From NCBI RefSeq assembly GCF_900141895.1, contig NZ_FQYT01000002.1, forward strand, positions 62,001-126,000: a stretch of DNA of 64,000 nucleotides. The letters run 5' to 3'. A model generated the notes under the pieces. The model searched no databases. It saw only the letters and a list, made by a program, of their open reading frames with translations, and had not been told where the DNA came from. Of this stretch, positions 25,841 to 43,987 are shown in pieces; position 1 is the first letter of the stretch; each line of letters opens with the position of its first letter. Origin of the DNA: Parasporobacterium paucivorans DSM 15970 (GTDB lineage: Bacteria; Bacillota; Clostridia; Lachnospirales; Lachnospiraceae). The position numbers were made by a program, and so were the translations under genes.

Positions 25841-26578
25841 TTATTTCATGCCGGCAAGGCAGAATGGAAGTTCTAAGCTGTTTGCTTCAAGCAGTTCCTT
25901 GTCAGTGAGTATCTCCCTGGCCGGTCCTTCACAGACAATCCGACCACTTGACATCAGTATTACCCTGCTGCAGGTTTCCAGTATCATGTCCAAGTCATGA
26001 GATGCAATGATTTTTACATATTTCAGGCGATTCAGTATATTAATGATTGTTCTTCGGTTCTTCGGATCAAGAGCAATGGAAGGCTCATCCATTAAGAGAA
26101 CATTTGGCTTCATAGCCAGAATGGTCGCTATGGCCGCCATCTTTTTTTCTCCTCCGGACATTTTATAGATTTTTTTATCCTTCAGATGTAAGATACCGGC
26201 CGTAGATAAAGCATCCATCGTCATTTCATGTACTTTTGCCTCATCCATTCCGTAATTCCGCAGTGCAAATGCAACATCATTATAAACATTCTGTGTAAAC
26301 AGCTGGTTATCTGAATTCTGAAATAAATACCCTGCCTTTTCCCGTATATCCGGAAGATTCTTTTTGGTTACCGGCATCTGATTCATAAGTACTTCTCCCT
26401 TGAAATCCAGTTCCAGTCCAACCAGAATACGCAACAAGGTGGATTTACCTGCTCCGTTGGCTCCTATAATTCCCACAGATTCATCGTCTCCTACCCGGAA
26501 GGAGATGTCCTTGAGAACCTGCGTTGCATCTTCATACGAAAACGAAAGATTGTTACATTCAATATAATTTTTCTCCAT
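25841..26578 (-). CDS. cbiO: Ni/Co ECF transporter ATPase CbiO/NikO
   Basis: ATP-binding subunit of the energy-coupling factor importer. The 245-residue protein has Walker A GANGAGKST, the Q-loop FQNSDNQLF, the signature MSGGEKKM, and Walker B VLLMDEPS with the switch His in ASHDLD. The start at 26578 follows a GGGTAAGGGT site; longer in-frame starts would run deep into cbiQ. The true start overlaps nothing and leaves the cbiQ stop at 26614 a 35-nt gap upstream. Confidence 0.92.
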   Translation of the reverse strand: MEKNYIECNNLSFSYEDATQVLKDISFRVGDDESVGIIGANGAGKSTLLRILVGLELDFKGEVLMNQMPVTKKNLPDIREKAGYLFQNSDNQLFTQNVYNDVAFALRNYGMDEAKVHEMTMDALSTAGILHLKDKKIYKMSGGEKKMAAIATILAMKPNVLLMDEPSIALDPKNRRTIINILNRLKYVKIIASHDLDMILETCSRVILMSSGRIVCEGPAREILTDKELLEANSLELPFCLAGMK

Positions 26579-26613
26579 ACCCTTACCCTTCCAAAACCGG
26601 TTTCTAAATGTAT

Positions 26614-27411
26614 TCAAAGTAAAACGGCAATAATTCCTGCGATGTTGACGATCCGAAGTCCCACGATAATTCCCAGCCAAAGAAACAGGTAAATATAATC
26701 CGTCTGTGTGCACCTGCGGCGGTCGGAATAATAAAATTCGCCGTTGAATCCCCTAAGAAGCATACTGTCAAAAATATTCTCAGCTCTGTCGATACTCCTT
26801 AACAGAAGCTGCCCGATGAGCGATCCCCAAATTTTATATTTCACCCCTTTTTGATTCGGCGCACGCATCGAATAGGCTTCAATGACGGCATTTGCTTCTC
26901 CCATCAGAAGCGTTATATAGCGATAGACCAGAAGAATCTGCGTAACGATGATTCCGGGGATATGCAGCAGCCTCAGCGCATAACATATCTTCTCGATTCC
27001 GGTTGTCGCTACCAGAAGATAGGTAGCCACTAGCGTATATATACCCTTAATCACTAACGTCAGCATGGAAATCACTCCGCCCGTTATCACGACTCCACCA
27101 ATATGAAGAAGCGGAGTGTGATCAAACAATGGGTTGAACAGCCCCACAAAGCATACAAGCGGAAGTACAACGCGGAGTTTTTTAAAGCATGATTTTATTG
27201 AAATTTCCGCAAGGTTAAAAATTATCAGCGGGTACAGAAGCATAGGAAGAAGTCCAAAAATATCGTATTTATCAAAGGAAACGACACAGGTGATATAAAC
27301 AACTGTAAGTATCAGTTTAACCAGCGGATGGATCCGGTTTATGTTTGTATTTTTGTCTGCCATCTCATCCATCTCATGGATTTCATAAATAGCTTTATTG
27401 ATTTTACTCAA
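26614..27411 (-). CDS. cbiQ: Ni/Co ECF transporter transmembrane subunit CbiQ
   Basis: Coupling membrane protein of the ECF importer, 265 residues with about five to six hydrophobic helices. The cytoplasmic SMRAPNQKGVKYK and LLLRSIDRAENIFDSMLLRGF segments are the ATPase-contacting coupling helices of CbiQ/EcfT. The first codon appears to be TTG at 27411, preceded by GGGAGTGTGAG. It lies between cbiM and cbiO. Confidence 0.9.
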   Translation of the reverse strand: MSKINKAIYEIHEMDEMADKNTNINRIHPLVKLILTVVYITCVVSFDKYDIFGLLPMLLYPLIIFNLAEISIKSCFKKLRVVLPLVCFVGLFNPLFDHTPLLHIGGVVITGGVISMLTLVIKGIYTLVATYLLVATTGIEKICYALRLLHIPGIIVTQILLVYRYITLLMGEANAVIEAYSMRAPNQKGVKYKIWGSLIGQLLLRSIDRAENIFDSMLLRGFNGEFYYSDRRRCTQTDYIYLFLWLGIIVGLRIVNIAGIIAVLL

Positions 27412-27506: not shown

Positions 27507-28514
27507 TCAGGCTTCTTTCGGGGTTTTGCCTGTCTTCTTGAAAAGTTTGAACAGAACCGCACAGCCTATACATATGATTGCCACAAAAACCGATCCCAGT
27601 ACTCCCGAAAAAGTTGTTCCGGTCTTTGAATCACTGTCCTTAAAAGAATAATTCGGGAAAAGTGCTGTTTTATTCTGAATTTCAGCCGCCTGATCAATCG
27701 CTCCTGAATTTACTGTGTCCGATTCGATTTCTGTGCTGCCAGTCACTTTAAGGATCGACCATTCCAGTCCGTCCGGGTTGCTGGATGCTGTCAGGGACAG
27801 TCCTCCTCCAATTAAAACAACCACAATCGAAAGAATCACCAGGAATTTTTTGAATTCCATTTTATTATTGGCTTCCCCCATATTCAGGAGCTCTGGTCTT
27901 GCATTCTTAATGAAAATCACAACTGCTGATGTAATCAAACCTTCGATTACTCCAATTGCAAGATGAATCGGCTGCATCATTGCAAGAAACTGAACGAATG
28001 AAAGTTCTGTGACGCCTGAGGCCAGTGTCTGCAATGTAACACTGAACGCACCCAGCTGCAGGCTGATTACGCTTGCAAGCACTGTTGCGAAAATAATCCA
28101 TTGCGGCTTTGTGTTTTTCTTCACCATATTCCGGTAAATAAGAAAATACCCTATGAAGCAGGCATAAAAAGCCATGTTCCATATATTGCATCCCAATGCG
28201 AGAATTCCACCGTCCGCAAAAAGAAGGCATTGTACCGTCAGAATGGAAATCATGGACAGAAAGCCGGCATAAGGTCCTAACATGATCGCAAGCAGCAAAC
28301 CTCCGGAAAAATGTCCGCTGGCTCCGGTTCCTGGAATTGTAAAGTTTATCATCTGAGCCGCAAATACAAATGCCGCCATAATCCCCATAACTGGAATCTT
28401 CTTTATGTCATTCTCCAGTTTCACTTTTTTTATCGAATATCCTGCCGTTACCGCCGAAGCAGCATACATAGTTGCCGCAACTGCCGGTACGATAAGTGCG
28501 TCTGCCATATGCAT
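27507..28514 (-). CDS. cbiM: Ni/Co ECF transporter substrate subunit CbiM with CbiN-like tail
   Basis: Substrate-capturing membrane subunit of a nickel/cobalt importer. The 335-residue protein begins MHMADAL, and the N-terminal Met-His are metal ligands in NikM/CbiM; a further His lies in GASGHFSGGLL. About six helices (1-210) are followed by a second membrane unit with the PDGLE motif (about 260-335), the CbiN/NikN role in the same chain. Which metal is preferred cannot be read reliably, but nickel fits the adjacent CODH/ACS genes and cobalt fits the corrinoid protein. Confidence 0.9.
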   Translation of the reverse strand: MHMADALIVPAVAATMYAASAVTAGYSIKKVKLENDIKKIPVMGIMAAFVFAAQMINFTIPGTGASGHFSGGLLLAIMLGPYAGFLSMISILTVQCLLFADGGILALGCNIWNMAFYACFIGYFLIYRNMVKKNTKPQWIIFATVLASVISLQLGAFSVTLQTLASGVTELSFVQFLAMMQPIHLAIGVIEGLITSAVVIFIKNARPELLNMGEANNKMEFKKFLVILSIVVVLIGGGLSLTASSNPDGLEWSILKVTGSTEIESDTVNSGAIDQAAEIQNKTALFPNYSFKDSDSKTGTTFSGVLGSVFVAIICIGCAVLFKLFKKTGKTPKEA

Positions 28515-28546: not shown

Positions 28547-28575
28547 AGTATAAAATAAATTTATTTTCGCCACAA
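28547..28575 (-). promoter_or_regulatory. Promoter of the cbiMQO operon
   Basis: On the minus strand, TTGTGG (28570-28575) and TATACT (28547-28552) are spaced 17 nt, with transcription starting about 25 nt before the cbiM start codon. No cobalamin or NiCo riboswitch fits in so short a leader. A CCCCCCCTACGG tract lies just upstream. Confidence 0.6.
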
Positions 28576-28642
28576 GCCGTAGGGGGGGATAAAAAACCCA
28601 TAATATTTAAATTTATTTTTTAACAAAAGCAAGGTAGAATAA

Positions 28643-28679
28643 GGAAAAGCGGCAATGAATCTCTTCACCGCCGCTTTCC
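28643..28679 (-). terminator. Hairpin after acsB1
   Basis: GGAAAGCGGC and GCCGCTTTTCC form a GC-rich stem 9 nt after the acsB1 stop. The following U-run (CTTATTCT) is weak, so efficiency is uncertain. It separates the cooS-cooC-acsB1 operon from cbiMQO. Confidence 0.55.
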
Positions 28680-28687
28680 GTCACTAT

Positions 28688-30814
28688 TTAAATTATTGAT
28701 TCCATCTCCAGAGCCGGATGCCCTTTTTCCGACAAATACTCCAGTACACCTTCTGAATCGGTGGCTATTGTTTCATCACATATCATATCCGTGAAATTAT
28801 CAATATCATAGAGCTCTTTTGCCGTTTTGTTCAGTCTCTCGGCAACATCATTTTTCAATTCTTTAGGCATCCATACGATCCTGGCTATTCCGCCCTCAGA
28901 GTATAGGAATTTCTTCGAACCGATAAAATGTCTTCCGTGACCCATAAATCCAGGAGTCTGTACACCCCCGCCTGTCATGGATGCCAGTTCCCCAAAGGTC
29001 ATTCCGGTTGGAGTTATCTCCCCAAATTCCCTGTTGACGATTACAACACCATTCGCTTCCGGCATGATGCCGCATATACATTCAAAGCAGCCGCAGCTTG
29101 TCATCGGATCTTCCAATATTGAATACAGCGATACGTTTGTAACGGCTCCCTGAGATATTTCAGCCACAGTCTTGCTGACTTCCGTCCAGATTCCTTTTTT
29201 CTCGTCAAGACATCCCTCTTTAGGGACAGGCTGGGCGGAACCATGAGGATCCAGTTCCTTTGTTGCCTTGGCATCCAGCCAGCTTACTGCACCGCACAAG
29301 CCGAGACGTTCCGGTGTGACGATGCACACATGGGCCGGAGCAAAGGATTGACAAAGTTTACATGAGTAGAAAGTATCCACGCTTTCATCCGTGAGGGACG
29401 CCAGTCTCCGGTCGCGGGACACGTACTTGGGAAATGCGATTTTTTCCTCGAGTTCAGCAACTTTTTGGGCATCTGTATATATCGTGACCTGACATTTATC
29501 CACAACGGTATCGAACTCATCCCGCATTTTTGCATATATGACTTCCCCGAGATGTTTCAGACGGAATCCTTTCTCGTAAGCTTCTTTTCCAATCCGAATC
29601 CAGGAAATGTTTCTCTGCCCTACATGCATCACTCCCTCGATATAATTCAGAAAATAATGAAGCCTTCTTTCTAAAACCGGTTCGAAATCCTCCTGCATCA
29701 GCTTGCCGGCCACATCAATAACCAGAGCCAGAGGAAGCCTGTAAGGAATAGAATCTGCCGTGTCGATATCCGGACCAATAATTTCAATCTTGTGATCCTC
29801 CACCTCGGACAGATCGACCATTCTGACCAATTCGAAAGCCTTTGTCTTGTTTCCTCCAAATTCAGCGTACATATCTGCTTTTCGGATTCGCTCTCCTTCA
29901 AATGCGGAAGAAATTCCTACTGGGGCGTCTATTTTAGTTACTTTTATCTTGATTTTTCTGGCTTCCAGGGATGTATCCACTGTTTTTTCATTGTCCGGCT
30001 GGTGAAGAAGGAGCGTCGGAACTTCATTGATATATGTTTCTGTTACCGCCGGGAATCCCAGTTCAATGGCTGCAGCTCCAGCTGCAATAATCTTGTCGTC
30101 CCAGTCAGAAAATACATTGACAAATGCTTTCACCCTGTCTTTTGTATACTGTTTATGTGCCTGGTAATCACCTGGCTGGACGTTTCCAAAAATCAGGCTT
30201 GCCCGGATTGCCACCGACACAACATGGATTACGGATTCTATCTCATAGCCCAGTGGGATCACCCGAAGATCGATGCCCATTTTAACGCCTTCCGCAATAC
30301 ATTGATCGATTACTTTTCCAACCAGAAATGTCAGCATACCCTTTTCCTGATAATCCTTAACAATGGAAGCTGCAGTATGGCTGTCTTTGCATTCACCGAT
30401 GATAACCGGAACTCCAGGAATATCCTGGGTTACCAGGGCTACACCAAATGCCCTTATCTGTGCGTCAGTAAGATGCCCCTGCAAAGGTTCTGGATATGGA
30501 TTTTCTTCCAGAGTATATTTGACTGCCTCAATGATTTCACAGTACATGGCTGATGCCGTACCTGCATCCAATGCCTGCTGGAGGGTTTTTCCCTGATGGA
30601 CAAATCCTCCGGCCAAAGCCAGTGCTTCCTCCAGACCGCCTACCGTTATAATCTTCTTGCCTGTTATTGCATATATCACCGGTAATGCATAAGCTGTCTG
30701 CGGCAGTTTGACTCCGGCATCTCTGCCTTTCTGCATTATTGCCTTTTGAACTGCCTTTTCGGCTTCATCTTTATACTTATCCATTCCGGAATAGATTATC
30801 TTAAATAGATTCAT
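28688..30814 (-). CDS. acsB: Acetyl-CoA synthase (CO-methylating), first copy
   Basis: ACS joins CO, a methyl group from the corrinoid protein and CoA at the Ni-Ni-[4Fe-4S] A-cluster. The 708-residue protein has all three domains expected of bacterial ACS. The A-cluster ligands appear as SCKLCQSFAP, then GLCGAVSWLDA and SCGCFECICG. It overlaps cooC by 14 nt and lies behind cooS, so it probably forms the CODH/ACS complex with that CooS. A second full copy lies at 37183, clearly diverged at its N-terminus but near-identical around the A-cluster. Confidence 0.97.
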   Translation of the reverse strand: MNLFKIIYSGMDKYKDEAEKAVQKAIMQKGRDAGVKLPQTAYALPVIYAITGKKIITVGGLEEALALAGGFVHQGKTLQQALDAGTASAMYCEIIEAVKYTLEENPYPEPLQGHLTDAQIRAFGVALVTQDIPGVPVIIGECKDSHTAASIVKDYQEKGMLTFLVGKVIDQCIAEGVKMGIDLRVIPLGYEIESVIHVVSVAIRASLIFGNVQPGDYQAHKQYTKDRVKAFVNVFSDWDDKIIAAGAAAIELGFPAVTETYINEVPTLLLHQPDNEKTVDTSLEARKIKIKVTKIDAPVGISSAFEGERIRKADMYAEFGGNKTKAFELVRMVDLSEVEDHKIEIIGPDIDTADSIPYRLPLALVIDVAGKLMQEDFEPVLERRLHYFLNYIEGVMHVGQRNISWIRIGKEAYEKGFRLKHLGEVIYAKMRDEFDTVVDKCQVTIYTDAQKVAELEEKIAFPKYVSRDRRLASLTDESVDTFYSCKLCQSFAPAHVCIVTPERLGLCGAVSWLDAKATKELDPHGSAQPVPKEGCLDEKKGIWTEVSKTVAEISQGAVTNVSLYSILEDPMTSCGCFECICGIMPEANGVVIVNREFGEITPTGMTFGELASMTGGGVQTPGFMGHGRHFIGSKKFLYSEGGIARIVWMPKELKNDVAERLNKTAKELYDIDNFTDMICDETIATDSEGVLEYLSEKGHPALEMESII

Positions 30815-33520: not shown

Positions 33521-33583
33521 TACTGATCCTCCTATCATTTTTTACGACCGATATTTTATCCAATTTGCTTGTTTTATCTATTG

Positions 33584-33628
33584 TATTGTTATATTATTAA
33601 CAATATCATTTTCATTTTTTTTTGTCAA
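33584..33628 (-). promoter_or_regulatory. cooS promoter with Rex-like 22-bp operator
   Basis: On the minus strand, TTGACA (33623-33628) and TATTGT (33600-33605) are 17 nt apart. The -10 box is one arm of a perfect dyad, TATTGTTA-6 nt-TAACAATA (33584-33605). The inner 18 bp match the Rex consensus TTGTTAAnnnnTTAACAA at 13 of 14 fixed positions. A closely similar module precedes the ACS/corrinoid operon (43296-43339). Confidence 0.65.
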
Positions 33629-33668
33629 TAATATTGTTGTATTTTTATTGATGCATGCAGTATATTTT

Positions 33669-33683
33669 GGATATTTTTGTGCA
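33669..33683. repeat. 15-bp element shared by the two C1 promoters (copy 1)
   Basis: GGATATTTTTGTGCA occurs here and at 43380-43394. In each case it lies 63-64 bp from the near edge of the operator dyad on the upstream side, i.e. at about -75 to -90 relative to the expected transcription start. This constant position suggests a site for an activator. Confidence 0.6.
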
Positions 33684-33734
33684 ATGTGTTTAAATCTTCA
33701 AGTTGTAAAGCTCGTAATTATTCACGAACCAGGC

Positions 33735-33763
33735 TTGACATACATTTTTGCTTTTGTTAATAT
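33735..33763 (+). promoter_or_regulatory. Promoter of the divergent CxC/CxxC gene
   Basis: TTGACA (33735-33740) and TAATAT (33758-33763) are spaced 17 nt, about 18 nt before a GGAGGTGG ribosome site. A small palindrome GTTAATATTTAAC (33756-33768) covers the -10 box. Confidence 0.7.
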
Positions 33764-34188: not shown

Positions 34189-34233
34189 CGAAAAAATCCT
34201 GACTGTCCACATGGTAGTCAGGATTTTTTCGTT
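34187..34233. terminator. Bidirectional terminator between convergent C1-island genes
   Basis: AACGAAAAAATCCTGACT and AGTCAGGATTTTTTCGTT form an 18-bp perfect stem with an 11-nt loop and T-runs within both arms. It overlaps the ends of both flanking genes. Confidence 0.9.
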
Positions 34234-35242
34234 ATTTTATGAATCTGTCTATTGCAAAATTCAGTTCCTCAATGGCTGATTTATCCCCAGATTCAACCGC
34301 ATCCACGATACAGTTTTCGATATGGTCCTGTAAAATCACCTTTCCGGTATTATTCAGGGCTGATTTCACGGCCGACAGCTGGATGAGGACTTCGCTGCAA
34401 TCACGGCCATCTTCCACCATTTTCTTTATGGCTTCCATATGTCCAATAGCACGCGACAGCCGGTTCAGTACAGCCTTCGTGTTTTTGTGATGGTGTTTAT
34501 GCTCTTCGTGGTGCTTGTGCTCTTCGTGGTGCTTGTGCTCTTCGTGGTGCTCGTGCCCTTCAGGGTGCTCGTGCTCTTCCGGCTCTTTGCGCTCGAGTCT
34601 GTTGGCGACAACTTTCAAAAAATCCAGGGAAACATCGCCGACGACCGCCATATCCTCGGCCGTAAAAGCCAACGAGAAATTGTCACTGAACAAAATCTGG
34701 GCTGAAGCGGAAAATTCTTCATCTCCCTGCCATAGAACCAGTTTAATCTGCAGATTGTTGATGAACTCGAAAATGTAGCTAAAATCCCCTGCCGCGCTTT
34801 CCTCCGCACCCATATTTGTCATTACATCTCTGAACTTTTCCGGTGTCTTCCCAAACATCCTGACCAGACGCTGAATGCATCTGCCATAAAAATTGGAGTA
34901 GTAGACTTCCCCCCAGGGCATTTCATGATAGGAGAGGAATTTCCCCGTGGAGGGAAGATTATTTCCTTCCAGCAGATACCGAATCAAAAGAATTTTGAGG
35001 GAGGGATTCTGAACATTGTAATTGTCATGATTTACATCATCATTGTCCCGCTGAACAGAAAAATCAGGGAAAGAAACAAGATATGCCGCTCCCATAATGC
35101 GGATCCTGAAGCTTCTTGACTGTTCGTCAAATTCCACACCGCATCTGTTTGCCGTTTCACGCGGTTCAAGCTGTTTGTAAAGCATCAGGTAGTGAGAAAA
35201 AGGCGCCTCTGTTTTATTGTCTTTGAAAATTTTATTATCCAT
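34232..35242 (-). CDS. DUF3786 :: His-rich linker :: CsoR-family metal sensor fusion
   Basis: A 336-residue protein in three parts. Residues about 15-210 resemble DUF3786, a domain seen in Wood-Ljungdahl gene clusters. Residues 223-252 hold 15 His among Glu and Lys, a likely Ni-binding store. Residues 254-336 are a complete CsoR/RcnR-type DNA-binding domain (LNRLSRAIGHMEAIKKMV). Its ligand positions are H250, C282, H307 and C311, spacing 32-25-4, the same residues and spacing as the nickel sensor InrS (H21, C53, H78, C82). The start at 35242 follows GAGGAGAAG. Last gene of the acsF-acsD-acsC-acsE-acsB-acsV operon. Confidence 0.85.
   Translation of the reverse strand: MDNKIFKDNKTEAPFSHYLMLYKQLEPRETANRCGVEFDEQSRSFRIRIMGAAYLVSFPDFSVQRDNDDVNHDNYNVQNPSLKILLIRYLLEGNNLPSTGKFLSYHEMPWGEVYYSNFYGRCIQRLVRMFGKTPEKFRDVMTNMGAEESAAGDFSYIFEFINNLQIKLVLWQGDEEFSASAQILFSDNFSLAFTAEDMAVVGDVSLDFLKVVANRLERKEPEEHEHPEGHEHHEEHKHHEEHKHHEEHKHHHKNTKAVLNRLSRAIGHMEAIKKMVEDGRDCSEVLIQLSAVKSALNNTGKVILQDHIENCIVDAVESGDKSAIEELNFAIDRFIK
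34501..34554 (-). repeat. 18-bp tandem repeat encoding the His-rich linker
   Basis: Three consecutive 18-bp units (34501, 34519, 34537; the last differs at one base) encode HHEEHK-type hexapeptides in the DUF3786-CsoR fusion. In-frame unit gain or loss would tune the number of metal-binding His residues. Confidence 0.9.
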
Positions 35243-35243
35243 T

Positions 35244-37169
35244 TTACTTCTCCTCAAAAAGATTTATGTCGGTATGCGGAATAAAGCATGCTGCCATGAA
35301 TTCATCCATGTACCCTGGATTTGAACTCAGTTCTATATATGTCATATTCCTTCCGATCTCAACAACCTTTTTAAACACTTTATCCGAAAGAACGGAAGCA
35401 TAGGCTCCGCTTAGGGACGAATTTCCGATATAATGGTAGCAATCCGCAGGCAGTTTCGGAAAAAGACCTATATTCATGGAATTTTTAATATTAATTCCGC
35501 TTCCAATTCCGCCGGCAACATATACACTTTCAATCATCGACATTTTCATGTCCAGAGATTCTGTCAGTGTCTTTATAGCCGAAAATATGGCTCCTTTAGC
35601 CCTGATAAAATTATCAATATCCACTTCGTTTATGAATACTCCCTTGATTGTGCCTGAGTCTTCCGGCTTAACCAGCATATAGGTTCCCATTCCAAAAGCA
35701 TCCCTGGTAACCCTGTTGTTTCCATCAATAAAAATACCCTTTGAATCGATAATCTTGCATCGATACAGTTCACTAACCAGATCTATGATTCCAGAACCAC
35801 AGATTCCGACTGGTTTTGTCTTCATTTCGCCGATAACAGACAGCACGGATTCTCCTGTCACTTCATTGATTTTTACAGCCTCAATCGCTCCATCAGTGGC
35901 CCGCATTCCGCAGCTTATATCTCCGCCTTCAAATGCCGGTCCTGCCGAGCAGGCGCAGGTCATGAGGAAATCTTTGTTGCCGAATACGATTTCTCCATTG
36001 GTTCCCAGGTCAATGAACAGGGATAATTCTTCTTTGTTCCAGATCATACTGGAAAGTGCTCCGGCGGTTATGTCCCCACCGACGTAGCTTCCCACGTTTG
36101 GAGCAAAGATGATATCCGCATTCGGATGGATATGGACATTTACATCGGATGCTTTAATATTTCTCAGTTCAAAAAAGCACGGAATATATGGTTCCCGCCT
36201 GATATGATCCGCATTAATGCCAAGAAAAAGATGGTTCATCGTCGTATTGGAGGCTATACACATCTTGACGATATCATTCCTTGAAATTTGAGCGAAACTG
36301 GCCATTTCATCAATCATCTGATTGATGGTTTCATCCACAATGGCCTTCTGAAGATTTTGAATACCGCCCGGCTTACAGGATTCCACTATCCGGTTGATTA
36401 CATCTGCTCCATATCTGATCTGTGCATTTCCTGCAGAGGATTTTGCCAGTATTTCTCCGTTTTCCAAATTTACCAGCAGAGCCGATACAGATGTGGTTCC
36501 GATATCAACCGCTATACCGGCAATAACAGGGTTAATATGTTCAGGATATATCCCATATAATATGACGCAGTCCTTCTTCTTTTGAAGAACACATTTCACA
36601 GTGAATTCATTATTACGGAGAATGTCAGGCAGAATCCTGATTACCGAAAATGGAATCATAATATGGATATCCGGAAATCCAGTCACCTTTTTGACAGCCC
36701 GTATCAGCCTTTCATTATCCGGCATAGTATCATCCAGTGTCGGAATATCCATAAAACAGGTGATTACATGCCAGTCATTTTTCAAATCCAGCCCGGCAGC
36801 CTTGATATTCTGCCTGGTCTCCTCAAAGATGGCCAATTCATTTTCTGAACTCAGGTCCGTAATCTTCATCCGACTCTTATATGCAGAGGAAATGTCTGGT
36901 ACCAGAACTTCCACATCCTCATGGATTTTACTGACGCATGCCAACCTGTACCCATCGGCATATTCCAGTTCCGAAATATGACGGGTTACAGCCGACTCCA
37001 GTTCACCCTTAATGAGCCTGACCTTGCATTTTCCGCAGGAAGCATTTCCTGAACAGGGCGCATCAATAGGTACATTGGCTTTTCTTGAAGCTTCAAGCAC
37101 CGTATCACCGGAAGAGGCAAAGAAAATTAATTCTTTGCCGTCCTCCTGAATAAAAGTTATTTTGGGCAT
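35244..37169 (-). CDS. acsV: Corrinoid protein reductive activator (RACo/AcsV-like)
   Basis: ATP-dependent activator that reduces accidentally oxidised Co(II) corrinoid protein back to Co(I). The protein of 641 residues has an N-terminal [2Fe-2S] ferredoxin domain (APCSGNASCGKCKV with a further Cys in RLACVSK), a linker domain, and an ASKHA-type ATPase domain (VDIGTTSVSALL, DLGTNGEIV, AGGIGSGINI). I choose the ATG at 37169, since GGAGGAGA precedes it; a TTG lies at 37181. It follows acsB2 by 13 nt. Confidence 0.93.
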   Translation of the reverse strand: MPKITFIQEDGKELIFFASSGDTVLEASRKANVPIDAPCSGNASCGKCKVRLIKGELESAVTRHISELEYADGYRLACVSKIHEDVEVLVPDISSAYKSRMKITDLSSENELAIFEETRQNIKAAGLDLKNDWHVITCFMDIPTLDDTMPDNERLIRAVKKVTGFPDIHIMIPFSVIRILPDILRNNEFTVKCVLQKKKDCVILYGIYPEHINPVIAGIAVDIGTTSVSALLVNLENGEILAKSSAGNAQIRYGADVINRIVESCKPGGIQNLQKAIVDETINQMIDEMASFAQISRNDIVKMCIASNTTMNHLFLGINADHIRREPYIPCFFELRNIKASDVNVHIHPNADIIFAPNVGSYVGGDITAGALSSMIWNKEELSLFIDLGTNGEIVFGNKDFLMTCACSAGPAFEGGDISCGMRATDGAIEAVKINEVTGESVLSVIGEMKTKPVGICGSGIIDLVSELYRCKIIDSKGIFIDGNNRVTRDAFGMGTYMLVKPEDSGTIKGVFINEVDIDNFIRAKGAIFSAIKTLTESLDMKMSMIESVYVAGGIGSGINIKNSMNIGLFPKLPADCYHYIGNSSLSGAYASVLSDKVFKKVVEIGRNMTYIELSSNPGYMDEFMAACFIPHTDINLFEEK

Positions 37170-37182
37170 TCTCTCCTCCAAA

Positions 37183-39318
37183 CTACATAATTGGATCTGA
37201 AGATAGCGCAGGATGGCCTTTTTCCGTCAGGAATTCCAATACTCCTTCCGAATCCTCAGAGATGGTTTCATCACAGATCATATCCGAGAAATTATCAATA
37301 CCGTATAATTCTTTAGCTGTCTTGTTCAGCTTATCGGCAACAGCATCCTTAAGTTCTTTTGGCATCCAGACGATTCTTGAGATTCCGCCTTCCGCCCTGA
37401 TGAATTTTTTGGAGGATATGAAACTTCTTCCATGTCCCATAAATCCAGGAGTCTGAACACCTCCACCAGTCATCGATGCAAGTTCACCAAATGTCATGCC
37501 GGTAGGTGTCATTCCCTTATGTTCTCTGTTTACGATAACCACACCATTTGCTTCAGGCATGATACCGCAGATGCATTCAAAACATCCACAGCTCGTCATC
37601 GGATCTTCCAGAATAGAATATAATGTTACATTGCTGACGCTGCCATGTGTCGACTCTTCCACAATCTTGTTGACTTCTGTGTAGATTCCCTTCAGTTCGT
37701 CCAAACAGCCTTCTTTTGGAATAGGCTGACATGGACCTGTCGGAGTCAGTTCCTTGGTCGCTTTGGCATCCAGCCATGAAACAGCACCGCACAGACCTGT
37801 TCTCTCAGGTGTTACTACGCAGCAATGTGCTGGAGCAAAGGACTGGCAGAGGATACAGGTGTAGAAGGTATCCACCGTCTCATCATTCAGGGACTCAAGT
37901 CTCTCATCACGCTTACCGTATGTCGGCATAGCAATTGTACTTAAAATTTCTTCGACTTTATCTTTTTCGGTATAGATAGTCACCTGGCATTTGTCAACAA
38001 CGTTGTCGAATTCATCCATTACCATATAGTAGATTACTTCGCCAAGATCTTTCAAACGCAGCCCTTTTTCAAAAGCTGCCTTATCGATACGAATCCTGAG
38101 AAGGTTTCTCTGGCCTGTATGCATGACGCCTTCCATGTAATTGAACCAGTGATGGATTTTTCTTTCGATTACCGGTTCAAAATCCGGCTGCATTTTTTCA
38201 CCAAAAACTTCAACAAGAATGGCAATTGGCATCTCCACTGGTGCTGTGCTGCCGTCAATATCCGGACCGTTGACTTCAACTTTATGATCCGTTATTTCAT
38301 CTTTGCCTCTTGAAAGAACCAGCTCACAGGTCGGATTCTTGTGTGAACTGAATTCTGCGTGCATGTCGTTTTTGCGGATGATTTCCCCTTCAAAAGCAGA
38401 AGCGAAAGCGACAGGAACTGGTATCTCTTTCATCTTGATCTTGATTTTTCTCAGTTCAAGAGATTTTGCTACGGTCTGTCCGTGATCTGTTACAGATTCC
38501 AGTGCTCCTGGTACCTGGTTTTCTCCCAAATCAACATCCACGACTACCGGGAATCCCAGTGCAATTGCTCCAGCTCCCGCTGAAACGGTCACGGCATCCA
38601 ACGGTCCGAATGTATTTACAAACGCCGGTACTCTTTCTTTTGTATAGGCAAGGAGCCCTGCCAAGTCGCCAGGAGTTGCATTTCCAAAAATCAGTGCTGC
38701 TCTTATTGCAACAGTCACAGCGTGGATTACGGAAGTAACGTCATGTCCCAAAGGAACAACACGGAAATCCAATCCCACCTTAACTCCTCCGTCAATAGCC
38801 TGTTCAATTAAATCGCCAACAAGAAAGGTCATAATTCCCTTGTTCTGGTAATCCTTGACGACCGCCACAACATCCGCAGGATTCTCTGCTTTACCCAGAA
38901 CGACTGCTACTCCAGGGATATCCCCCGTTACGAGAGGAACGCCAAGAGAACGGATAATCGGATCCGGCACAAAACCGATTCCTGAGTCCTGAGCATATGG
39001 ATCTCCGCCTTCTACATACTTAAGTCCTTCGATGATTTCTGCACCGACAGCTGTTGCAAGGCCGGCATTCAAAGCATCGCCCAGATCTTCCTTATTGGTT
39101 ATGAGGCTTTTCAATACGCCGACGCAGGCAGGGAGATCCCCAAGTGTCTTAACCTTCACTCCAGTAGCTGCATATATCGTCGGAAAGAAATAGGCGGTAT
39201 CCGGGAAAGCAAGCTTTTTGTCTGCACCGTACTTGGCGATTGCATCATTTACGGCACCTTCGGTGAGGCCTGCTACTGCATTGGAGCCTCCATAAATTAA
39301 ATCAGTTAAAACACTCAT
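37183..39318 (-). CDS. acsB: Acetyl-CoA synthase (CO-methylating), second copy
   Basis: Full-length ACS of 711 residues in the corrinoid-protein operon, with A-cluster motifs TCILCQSFAP, GLCGAVSWLDA and SCGCFECICG intact. Its N-terminal domain differs from copy 1 (SVLTDLIYGGSNAV versus NLFKIIYSGMDKYK) while the C-terminal domain is nearly the same, so the copies may bind different partners or have diverged except for the active site. It follows acsE by 22 nt. Confidence 0.97.
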   Translation of the reverse strand: MSVLTDLIYGGSNAVAGLTEGAVNDAIAKYGADKKLAFPDTAYFFPTIYAATGVKVKTLGDLPACVGVLKSLITNKEDLGDALNAGLATAVGAEIIEGLKYVEGGDPYAQDSGIGFVPDPIIRSLGVPLVTGDIPGVAVVLGKAENPADVVAVVKDYQNKGIMTFLVGDLIEQAIDGGVKVGLDFRVVPLGHDVTSVIHAVTVAIRAALIFGNATPGDLAGLLAYTKERVPAFVNTFGPLDAVTVSAGAGAIALGFPVVVDVDLGENQVPGALESVTDHGQTVAKSLELRKIKIKMKEIPVPVAFASAFEGEIIRKNDMHAEFSSHKNPTCELVLSRGKDEITDHKVEVNGPDIDGSTAPVEMPIAILVEVFGEKMQPDFEPVIERKIHHWFNYMEGVMHTGQRNLLRIRIDKAAFEKGLRLKDLGEVIYYMVMDEFDNVVDKCQVTIYTEKDKVEEILSTIAMPTYGKRDERLESLNDETVDTFYTCILCQSFAPAHCCVVTPERTGLCGAVSWLDAKATKELTPTGPCQPIPKEGCLDELKGIYTEVNKIVEESTHGSVSNVTLYSILEDPMTSCGCFECICGIMPEANGVVIVNREHKGMTPTGMTFGELASMTGGGVQTPGFMGHGRSFISSKKFIRAEGGISRIVWMPKELKDAVADKLNKTAKELYGIDNFSDMICDETISEDSEGVLEFLTEKGHPALSSDPIM

Positions 39319-42455: not shown

Positions 42456-43226
42456 CTATAAATCAAGTTTATCAACAATTTCTCTAAACGCCTTCTTTAC
42501 CGGTGAATCATCCGGCAAATCCACTAACGGCTGGCCATTGCTGTCATATTCATAAACGCTGTCATCCTGGGGAAGGACTCCAGCTAACGTAAGGTTGTAT
42601 TTTTCTATTTCAGCTTTCGTGCCTTCGTTCAAAATCCCATTCGGTGCCCTGTTGACGACAAGCTGTACCGAATTTACTTTCATTTTCAGATCTTTAATCA
42701 TTTCCGCTATTCTTCCGACTGCCTGTATTCCTCTGGCTGAACAGTCACTGACAAGTATAATGGTATCTGCGGAAGGGAGTACGCCTCTGCTTATATGTTC
42801 CATTCCCGCTTCATTGTCCACAACCATGTACGCATATGATTTCGAAAACTTATCAATCTGTGTCTTCAAAATATCATTCACGAAACAATAGCATCCTTTG
42901 CCCTGCGGTTTTCCCATTGCAAGAAGGTCGAAATCTGTTCCCTCCGCAAGCGCACCCGCCATCTTGAAATCTGCATATTCCTGTTTGCTCATTCCCAGAG
43001 GAATCGGATTTATGCTGGCATTCTCTGCCGTTGCTATCTCTTCTCGTACATCTCCCAGAGTTGTTTCGAGTTGAACACCCAAGACTTCATTCAGGTTAGA
43101 GTTTGGATCAGCATCTACGGCCAATATCGGGGTCTTTCCGGCTTTTGCAAGGTATTGGACCAGTAATCCGCAAAATGTGGTTTTTCCTGTTCCTCCTTTG
43201 CCGGCTACAGCAATTATTTTTGCCAT
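42456..43226 (-). CDS. Second CooC-type ATPase, probably AcsF (ACS nickel insertion)
   Basis: A 256-residue MinD/CooC-family ATPase: Walker A GKGGTGKTT, DADPNSNLNEVLG, and a Cys pair in GKGCYCFVND. It differs clearly from CooC at 30801, which pairs with cooS. Because this copy leads the ACS/CFeSP operon, I infer that it is the AcsF type that loads nickel into ACS; sequence alone cannot exclude CODH maturation. It is preceded by an 80-nt leader and a Rex-like operator. Confidence 0.85.
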   Translation of the reverse strand: MAKIIAVAGKGGTGKTTFCGLLVQYLAKAGKTPILAVDADPNSNLNEVLGVQLETTLGDVREEIATAENASINPIPLGMSKQEYADFKMAGALAEGTDFDLLAMGKPQGKGCYCFVNDILKTQIDKFSKSYAYMVVDNEAGMEHISRGVLPSADTIILVSDCSARGIQAVGRIAEMIKDLKMKVNSVQLVVNRAPNGILNEGTKAEIEKYNLTLAGVLPQDDSVYEYDSNGQPLVDLPDDSPVKKAFREIVDKLDL

Positions 43227-43295
43227 GTAACTCTCCTTTCATATTCCTATAATATTCTGCACAAATCGAAATTGACTTTGACTACATTTTGTCGT

Positions 43296-43339
43296 GATTG
43301 TTACAATAATAACAATATCACTTTGCACCTTTTTGTCAA
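43296..43339 (-). promoter_or_regulatory. ACS/CFeSP operon promoter with Rex-like operator
   Basis: On the minus strand, TTGACA (43334-43339) and TATTGT (43312-43317) are spaced 16 nt. A dyad ATTGTTA-6 nt-TAACAAT (43297-43316) covers the -10 box; its inner 18 bp match the Rex consensus at 12 of 14 fixed positions. The whole region aligns with the cooS promoter for about 100 bp with one 1-nt length difference. Confidence 0.62.
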
Positions 43340-43379
43340 TATATCTGTTGTACTTTAATCAATACAAACTACATTATAG

Positions 43380-43394
43380 GGATATTTTTGTGCA
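43380..43394. repeat. 15-bp element shared by the two C1 promoters (copy 2)
   Basis: GGATATTTTTGTGCA, identical to 33669-33683 and at the same distance from its dyad. The rest of the 380-bp divergent gap 43227-43606, from about 43395 to 43543, is AT-rich and shows no other element that I can support. Confidence 0.6.
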
Positions 43395-43543
43395 TATTAT
43401 ACATTGTCTTTAAAATAACCTTGCCTGAGTTTTATTATAAGGACACATCGAAGAAATGTAAACAATAGTTAAAATATAAACATCTAAGTTTGATAATTAA
43501 CGCACATTTACATATCTTTTCACTTTTTTATTCCATGGCAGTA

Positions 43544-43572
43544 TTGAACGTTTGAAGTATTTCATATATAAT
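43544..43572 (+). promoter_or_regulatory. Promoter of the His-rich protein and cooT genes
   Basis: TTGAAC (43544-43549) and TATAAT (43567-43572) are spaced exactly 17 nt, giving a leader of about 28 nt with GAGGAGG just before the start codon. Confidence 0.8.
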
Positions 43573-43606
43573 ATAATAACAAACAACATATCGAGGAGGT
43601 AACAAC

Positions 43607-43987
43607 ATGCACGAGGATATCAAAGAGAATGGCGGCAACAATCACGAGCACAATCATGAGCATGCACACACACATACCCATACACATGAATATCCGGACG
43701 GTATGCAGTTCACTCATGAACATACGCATATGCACGAGGGTTCTGATGCTTCAGCACATTCACACACCCACGAAAAAGTGACCAATAATACAGAATCCCA
43801 AAAAATCATTTCAATCCTGGACTATACTGTTTCGCATAATATTCATCATGCCGAAGAACTATCAAGAATTGCAGACAATCTTGAAAGCTCTGGAATGGCT
43901 GAAAGTGCACAGCTCATCAGAGAAAGCATCCCTCTGTACAACCAGGCGAATGCAAAATTGTCAGAAGCGTTGGCAAAAACGAAGTAG
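43607..43987 (+). CDS. His-rich metal-binding protein
   Basis: A 126-residue soluble protein. The first 57 residues contain 16 His, mostly as alternating HxH in HTHTHTH and HEHTHMH runs, a pattern typical of nickel or cobalt storage and delivery proteins. The C-terminal part (about 62-126) is a helical domain without Cys. It lies 9 nt before cooT and diverges from the ACS/CFeSP operon, so a role in nickel supply to CODH/ACS is the simplest inference. No signal peptide, so it acts in the cytoplasm. Confidence 0.82.
   Translation: MHEDIKENGGNNHEHNHEHAHTHTHTHEYPDGMQFTHEHTHMHEGSDASAHSHTHEKVTNNTESQKIISILDYTVSHNIHHAEELSRIADNLESSGMAESAQLIRESIPLYNQANAKLSEALAKTK

Follow-up and report, generated by a model that had tools for sequence, protein, structure and literature searches.

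An InrS-like CsoR domain fused to DUF3786 at the end of the acs operon of Parasporobacterium paucivorans, and a predicted cbiMNQO operator linked to its family

The closest described systems to the protein considered here are sensors of the CsoR/RcnR family, and in particular InrS of Synechocystis (PDB 5FMN). InrS combines a Cys-His-Cys ligand set with a W-position His located in an N-terminal, His-containing extension, and carries a Glu at the B position and no Tyr at the A position (numbering deduced from its alignment with the protein studied here and from the account given in PMC4235346). A role in nickel import is reported for InrS, which enhances nik expression according to a review (PMC7055735). 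RcnR of E. coli is described in the same review as a nickel/cobalt homeostasis regulator with a G-tract operator (TACT-G6-N-AGTA) and a His as Z ligand (PMC7055735). The Cu(I)-sensing CsoR proteins are reported to have Cys-His-Cys at the X, Y and Z positions, an RLXR motif and G-tract operators, and in S. lividans CsoR the RLXR motif and a conserved Gln are reported to matter for DNA binding (PMC3902906).

The protein studied here is encoded in a 64,000-nucleotide stretch of the P. paucivorans DSM 15970 genome (hereafter the window) by a single unbroken ORF of the reverse strand (34232-35242; ATG at 35242, stop at 34232), giving 336 aa. In agreement with the initial annotation, this ORF joins a DUF3786 domain that includes an LWQGDEEF stretch (residues 27-204, 34631-35164, reverse strand; Pfam PF12654, E 5e-53, 179.6 bits for a gathering score of 27), a His-rich linker (residues 224-253, 34484-34573, reverse strand) and a complete CsoR/RcnR-type domain (residues 255-332 according to Pfam, 34247-34480, reverse strand; PF02583, E 6e-27, 94.4 bits for a gathering score of 22.8). 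The linker contains 15 His among its 30 residues and is encoded by an 18-bp tandem repeat of 4.9 copies. Its translation and that of the CsoR-type domain confirm the ligand set H250-C282-H307-C311, with the InrS-like spacing (32-25-4) that had been noticed, and H250, the W-position ligand, does lie inside the linker. The protein also carries the RLXR motif (R261-L262-S263-R264) and the Gln Q288, an Asp (D281) in place of Tyr at the A position and a Glu (E326) at the B position.

By its sequence, the CsoR half is a member of the CsoR/RcnR family with the InrS ligand type, and its closest solved relatives are 6ahx, then InrS 5fmn. It shares with InrS the family, the ligand types and their spacing, the position of the W His in an N-terminal extension, and the residues at A and B; it differs from it by its location behind DUF3786, by a linker far richer in His, by its helix 1 (RAIGHME in place of RIEGHIR) and by a predicted operator at cbiMNQO, not nrsD. 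With RcnR it has in common the family, a predicted role in nickel/cobalt homeostasis and a predicted G-tract operator, but its Z ligand is a Cys, and it scores 31.5 bits against the NCBIfam RcnR equivalog, whose cut-off is 138. Finally, X-Y-Z ligands, RLXR motif and predicted G-tract operators are shared with the Cu(I) CsoR proteins, from which the fusion protein differs by having no Tyr at A, by the uptake and nickel genes that adjoin its family and by the existence of a separate, canonical CsoR in the same genome, adjoining a copper-translocating P-type ATPase. In a phylogenetic tree, the His-rich CsoR proteins form a large group of their own, with support values of 0.05 to 0.96 along the path.

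No description of this fusion was found in the literature searched, which covered topics around CsoR, nickel, acetogens and LarC, in line with what had been presumed; DUF3786 appeared there through a mention in PMC12666383, an article that by its title concerns another subject. The same domain order had been hoped for in other acetogens, and this was not borne out. Exactly one fused ORF, that of the window, was obtained by whole-protein search among the matches listed from 809 distinct genomes (overlapping searches of the order, 196, the family, 250, the genus, 1, and the class, 391), in tables shortened at their low-scoring end, far from where any fused protein would be placed, and no DUF3786-CsoR fusion was present in 23 further contig loci. 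The genus is sampled by the window's genome alone. Relatives encode the CsoR part on its own, with a His-rich N-terminus. A different fusion was found in genome G416 (locus L162, 4011-5264, reverse strand), where one 417-aa ORF, located between larB and larE, combines LarC1, a His-rich stretch and a CsoR domain; it is alone of its kind among the matches listed from 397 genomes of the family.

Conservation was assessed over 85 of 93 non-redundant CsoR rows, ungapped and with at least 55% identity, the window's own protein being excluded and L055, L056, L057, L165, L166, L021 and L167 being dropped (six with less than 55% identity, plus the canonical CsoR of the window's genome or of distant ones). 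The four ligands are almost always kept (H250 in 82/85, C282 in 84/85, H307 and C311 in 83/85 each). A W-position His within one His-rich linker would by itself be weak evidence, but its presence in 82 of the 85 relatives indicates that H250 is constrained and meaningful; its neighbours H248 (76/85) and H252 (58/85) are less conserved. The initial annotation had singled out a loss of the DNA-binding residues in homologs as the finding that would speak against it. These residues are retained in the fusion protein as in its relatives, R261 and Q288 being invariant (85/85 each) and R264 being either an Arg (66/85) or a Lys (19/85). The B-position Glu is found in 54/85 relatives, an Asp replacing it in 18.

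His-rich CsoR proteins (at least 76 bits) are encoded by 29 of the 32 AcsB-positive genomes versus 41 of the 218 others, the 29 including the fusion itself, a weak copy in G405 (76.6 bits) and a copy in G425 that has neither the X Cys nor the Y His; AcsB without a strong His-rich CsoR is found in G286, G343 and G389. When the neighbours of the family were surveyed in 75 loci, over about 4 kb on each side where the contig allowed, nik, cbi, lar or NiFe-hydrogenase genes were found in 18 loci, the other 57 having none of these within the stretch read. The former comprise nik permease genes in eight loci (L008 and L011, both of Acetobacterium genomes, L102, L145, L151, L152, L156 and L165), cbiMN in four (L116, L135, L163 and L166; L134, with cbiQ and cbiO only, was left out of this count), larB and larE in three (L152, L154 and L162) and hydrogenase genes in three (L148, L153 and L161), L099 being counted as a nickel locus through a solute-binding gene alone. 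A Mrp-type ATPase is present in 16 of the 75 loci and an EamA transporter in four, and a CopA-like ORF in none of them within these approximately 4 kb. Neighbour clusters were named via representatives, with LarB, LarE, LarC1 and one nickel permease over their cut-offs, the models for the nickel solute-binding and Mrp-like proteins under theirs, and EamA and the nickel-dependent hydrogenase large subunit named by Pfam. These neighbours point to nickel as the metal concerned by the family. A methyltransferase-domain gene was also seen to recur, both beside nik genes and behind the operators described below (L253, L257, L263, L240 and L251).

A predicted operator of consensus TAWCCCCC-N5-GGSTT, TATCCCCCCCTACGGCTT, lies on the reverse strand of the window (28574-28591), 5.6 kb from the fusion gene. 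No other exact match occurs in the whole 2.44-Mb genome; 0.01 would be expected in the window. The site is less symmetric than most (CCCCCCCTACGG). Its last two bases are overlapped by the -35 box of a predicted cbiMNQO promoter (TTGTGG, 17 nt, TATACT; 28547-28575, reverse strand), which a generic promoter scan omitted because this -35 box is too poor. The predicted target genes, all on the reverse strand, encode a cbiMN-like transporter component (27507-28514; matches to CbiM and CbiN models, each below its cut-off), CbiQ (26614-27411; TIGR02454 over cut-off) and a cbiO-like ECF transporter ATPase (25841-26713; models under cut-off). The cbi promoter was also examined for known RNA elements, but all seven Rfam matches fell far short of their gathering scores; in the window, Rfam recognizes a single tRNA and nothing else.

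An early count of tracts over all genes gave a weak signal (6/35 for CsoR versus 0.95 expected; 1/25 for the window versus 0.35), and the deciding test was made on cbiMN promoters alone. The 200 bp upstream of cbiMN were compared in 30 loci, from the window's own genome, 15 genomes with the His-rich CsoR family (at least 80 bits) and 14 without it (at most 61 bits). A gap-free site abutting the -35 box of cbiMNQO is present in 15/15 genomes with the family and in 0/14 without it (Fisher p 1.3e-8, a value that overstates independence, as the compared genomes share ancestry). Thirteen of these 15 sites match the consensus exactly and two with one change, among them that of G229, a genome without any exact site. 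The lone tract seen in the 14 genomes without the family, a GGGGG at -14, was set aside as a ribosome-binding site by its position. In the 16 cbiMN promoters, the best -10 box matches 4-6 of 6 positions with spacers of 15-18 (15-19 being sought), for a mean of 4.9 versus 3.4 in shuffles, and the -35 box is poor (mean 3.25/6).

Genome-wide, the 15 genomes that have the family contain 25 exact sites and the 14 that do not contain two, the reversed pattern giving one match over all 33 genomes searched. The 25 sites consist of the 13 cbiMN sites and 12 others, eight of which stand ahead of genes for nik permeases (L254, L255), for solute-binding-like proteins (L239, L262) or for methyltransferase-like proteins of the type that recurs at nik loci (L253, L257, L263 and, judged by eye, L249). 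The LarC1-CsoR genome G416 likewise retains the exact operator, ahead of a methyltransferase gene. With up to one mismatch, 1.05 Mb of loci contain 23 sites versus none for the reversed pattern; in the window's genome, the corresponding numbers are 17 and 13, and weaker targets are therefore indistinguishable from noise there. Some sites speak against a strict link between site and family: the remaining four of the 12 (L242, L244, L246 and L259) and the two of the genomes without the family (G222 and G238) are not followed by any gene start within the stretch read, and a one-mismatch site precedes the CooC-like gene opening the acs operon of L169, in G389, one of the genomes without a strong His-rich CsoR. 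All in all, the proposal of an InrS-like sensor is upheld by the retained ligands and DNA-binding residues, by the nickel genes neighbouring the family and by the family-linked operator predicted at cbiMNQO.

The fusion gene closes a same-strand run composed of a CooC-like ATPase gene, acsD, acsC, acsE, acsB and acsV. Models for acsD, acsC and acsE are over cut-off; the CooC-like ATPase is named from its position, its own models being under cut-off. One base separates the stop of acsV (35244-37181, reverse strand; corrinoid activation protein, NF040756) from the ATG of the fusion gene, and a hairpin followed by a T-run, read from the sequence, lies directly 3' of the latter. The fusion gene is the last one of the acs operon, as had been stated. 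Control of this operon by the protein had also been envisaged, with four proposed target promoters; only the promoter at 28547 has the site, while those at 33584, 43296 and 43544 are without it, and the window's acs and CODH promoter stretches (43220-43620 and 33530-33760) contain no G tract. Control of the acs operon is thus not borne out so far in this genome, and neither is the proposed contact of the protein with ACS or CFeSP. In relatives, one of the sites with up to one mismatch precedes a lone acsB in L171, and another lies in L172 between acsB and a divergent gene; both of these acsB genes, located apart from other acs genes, are 77-78% identical to acsB copy 1 of the window (37183-39318, reverse strand), and nickel may directly control ACS there. 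The window contains a second acsB copy in the same region (28688-30814, reverse strand), 60% identical to the first and followed by a terminator-like hairpin (28644-28679) ahead of the cbi promoter. Divergently to the acs operon, a gene of the forward strand (43607-43987) encodes a His-rich, 126-aa protein without any Pfam or NCBIfam match. Genes resembling it lie beside CODH/CooC in L168 (8509-8886) and, in L092 (11430-11960), in the vicinity of DUF3786/AcsV-like genes, and its product could possibly be a small nickel-binding accessory protein like CooJ.

The DUF3786 part occupies its usual place. A DUF3786 gene directly follows acsV in 10 loci (L094, L095, L097, L100, L104, L106, L089, where the genes overlap, L169, L170 and L176), which is the slot of the fusion gene here; in other acs operons it stands alone and encodes about 210-260 aa, in contrast to the fused form described here. 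DUF3786 genes have no adjoining acs gene in L173 and L091, and the one of L092 lies ahead of an AcsV-like gene. It is this usual position behind acsV that says most about the function of DUF3786. The LWQGDEEF stretch is invariant in an alignment of 15 proteins (window and 14 of 17 DUF3786 loci; L020, which is masked, L023 and L024 were left out), which suggests a binding or active site. The structural model of the domain is confident (pLDDT 89.4); attempts at naming its fold were abandoned as too weak (Foldseek best E 0.12; Z 6.7 over 93 residues in a second comparison), and a sequence search of solved structures found no relative. DUF3786 was observed in other associations as well. In L104 (5303-6607, forward strand) it is fused to an FchA-like cyclohydrolase in a 434-aa protein (FchA model under cut-off), an FchA-like gene directly follows it in L094 and L100 and lies two genes on in L106 (by eye), and the DUF3786 proteins of deltaproteobacterial records (L019, L025, L026 and L027) have an N-terminal, Cys-rich CGINCxxC region.

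Several other readings of the fusion have to be weighed. An assembly or sequencing error joining two neighbouring genes would account for a fusion seen in one genome only, the sole representative of its genus, but it is very improbable: the frame is open throughout, and between residues 185 and 274 in-frame start codons occur solely at 191, 198, 209 and 269, leaving the linker without any, which makes it unlikely that a lost stop hides the start of a second gene. The linker is moreover a tandem repeat of its own, without the EDGTVxEH stretch found in many stand-alone CsoR N-termini, and the genome search gave the fusion gene as the only His-rich CsoR. We give hardly any credence either to an ordinary Cu(I)-sensing CsoR fused by chance. 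Cys-His-Cys at a 25-4 spacing is indeed common to Cu(I) CsoR proteins, and InrS itself is reported to bind Cu(I) tightly (PMC4235346); however, the Asp at position A replaces the Tyr of copper sensors, the operators lie at uptake genes, and BLAST relates none of the genes neighbouring the 75 family loci to the copper-translocating ATPase that adjoins the canonical CsoR elsewhere in the genome.

The choice between nickel and cobalt is less clear-cut. A sensor of cobalt, serving the corrinoid protein and B12, would fit an operon that encodes a corrinoid protein and its activator, as well as a transporter whose CbiMN component has nearly all of its hits to cobalt-transporter models, though all under cut-off, and whose CbiQ exceeds the cut-off of a cobalt ECF model; in addition, RcnR and DmeR are reported to answer both metals (PMC7055735). 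We nonetheless consider cobalt alone as a serious but less likely rival, given that relatives adjoin larB/C/E, NiFe-hydrogenase and nik transporter genes, that operators precede nik permease genes, and that the Cys-His-Cys and W-His set is that reported for InrS; the metal sensed is most likely nickel. It could also be imagined that the CsoR half is no regulator and forms, with the linker, a nickel store or a donor to ACS acting via DUF3786, in the manner of a maturation factor. The fusion to an acs-operon protein, the 15 His among 30 linker residues and the joining of a like domain to the nickel insertase LarC1 in L162 would all suit such a role. It is rather improbable all the same, the DNA-binding residues being intact and both fusion genomes, in neither of which another strong His-rich CsoR was found, retaining an exact operator ahead of a gene that belongs to metal uptake or is nik-linked. 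As the other CsoR of the genome is canonical and adjoins a copper ATPase, the cbi site has its best candidate reader in the fused protein, which argues for a working regulator; and as the acs promoters are without the site, the most likely role of the CsoR half is to regulate metal uptake in response to nickel (or nickel and cobalt), and not the acs promoters.

Taken as a whole, our results are best explained by a CsoR/RcnR sensor of the InrS kind fused to DUF3786 and adjusting metal uptake at cbiMNQO, a reading to which we assign a probability of about 0.7. The gene of such a sensor would have merged with the acs-operon gene for DUF3786. The CsoR half, assumed from its family to be tetrameric, would bind the predicted operator at the -35 box of cbiMNQO and adjust the uptake of nickel, possibly of nickel and cobalt, and metal binding at H250-C282-H307-C311 would release it from the operator. 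The apo-protein would more likely switch uptake on than off, since the site abuts a weak -35 box in the way of an activator's and since an enhancing effect on nik import is reported for InrS. In L012, L147 and L157, however, csoR itself has a similar site shortly upstream and an EamA transporter gene behind it; repression would be more natural there, and this counts against the activator reading. The His-rich linker might add metal buffering, and the position of the sensor as last acs cistron would tie its amount to the production of ACS. In a bolder version of this scheme, which is conceivable and rather doubtful, DUF3786 would dock on ACS or a partner, linker and CsoR domain would hand over nickel, and the empty sensor would call for more at the cbiMNQO operator. 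If this were true, LarC1-CsoR would represent a second, independent case of the same sense-and-metallate logic, for another nickel enzyme.

Acetogens have to meet the heavy nickel demand of their CODH/ACS by a matching supply. The fusion may tie nickel supply to the nickel-dependent enzyme of the acs operon, and the family-linked operator provides a concrete candidate regulon, made up of cbiMNQO, nik genes and perhaps acsB in some relatives. Finally, two single-case fusions, one with a domain of unknown function linked to the Wood-Ljungdahl pathway and the other with LarC1, hint that the sensor domain has been repeatedly joined to accessory proteins of nickel enzymes, and they offer a functional lead for DUF3786.
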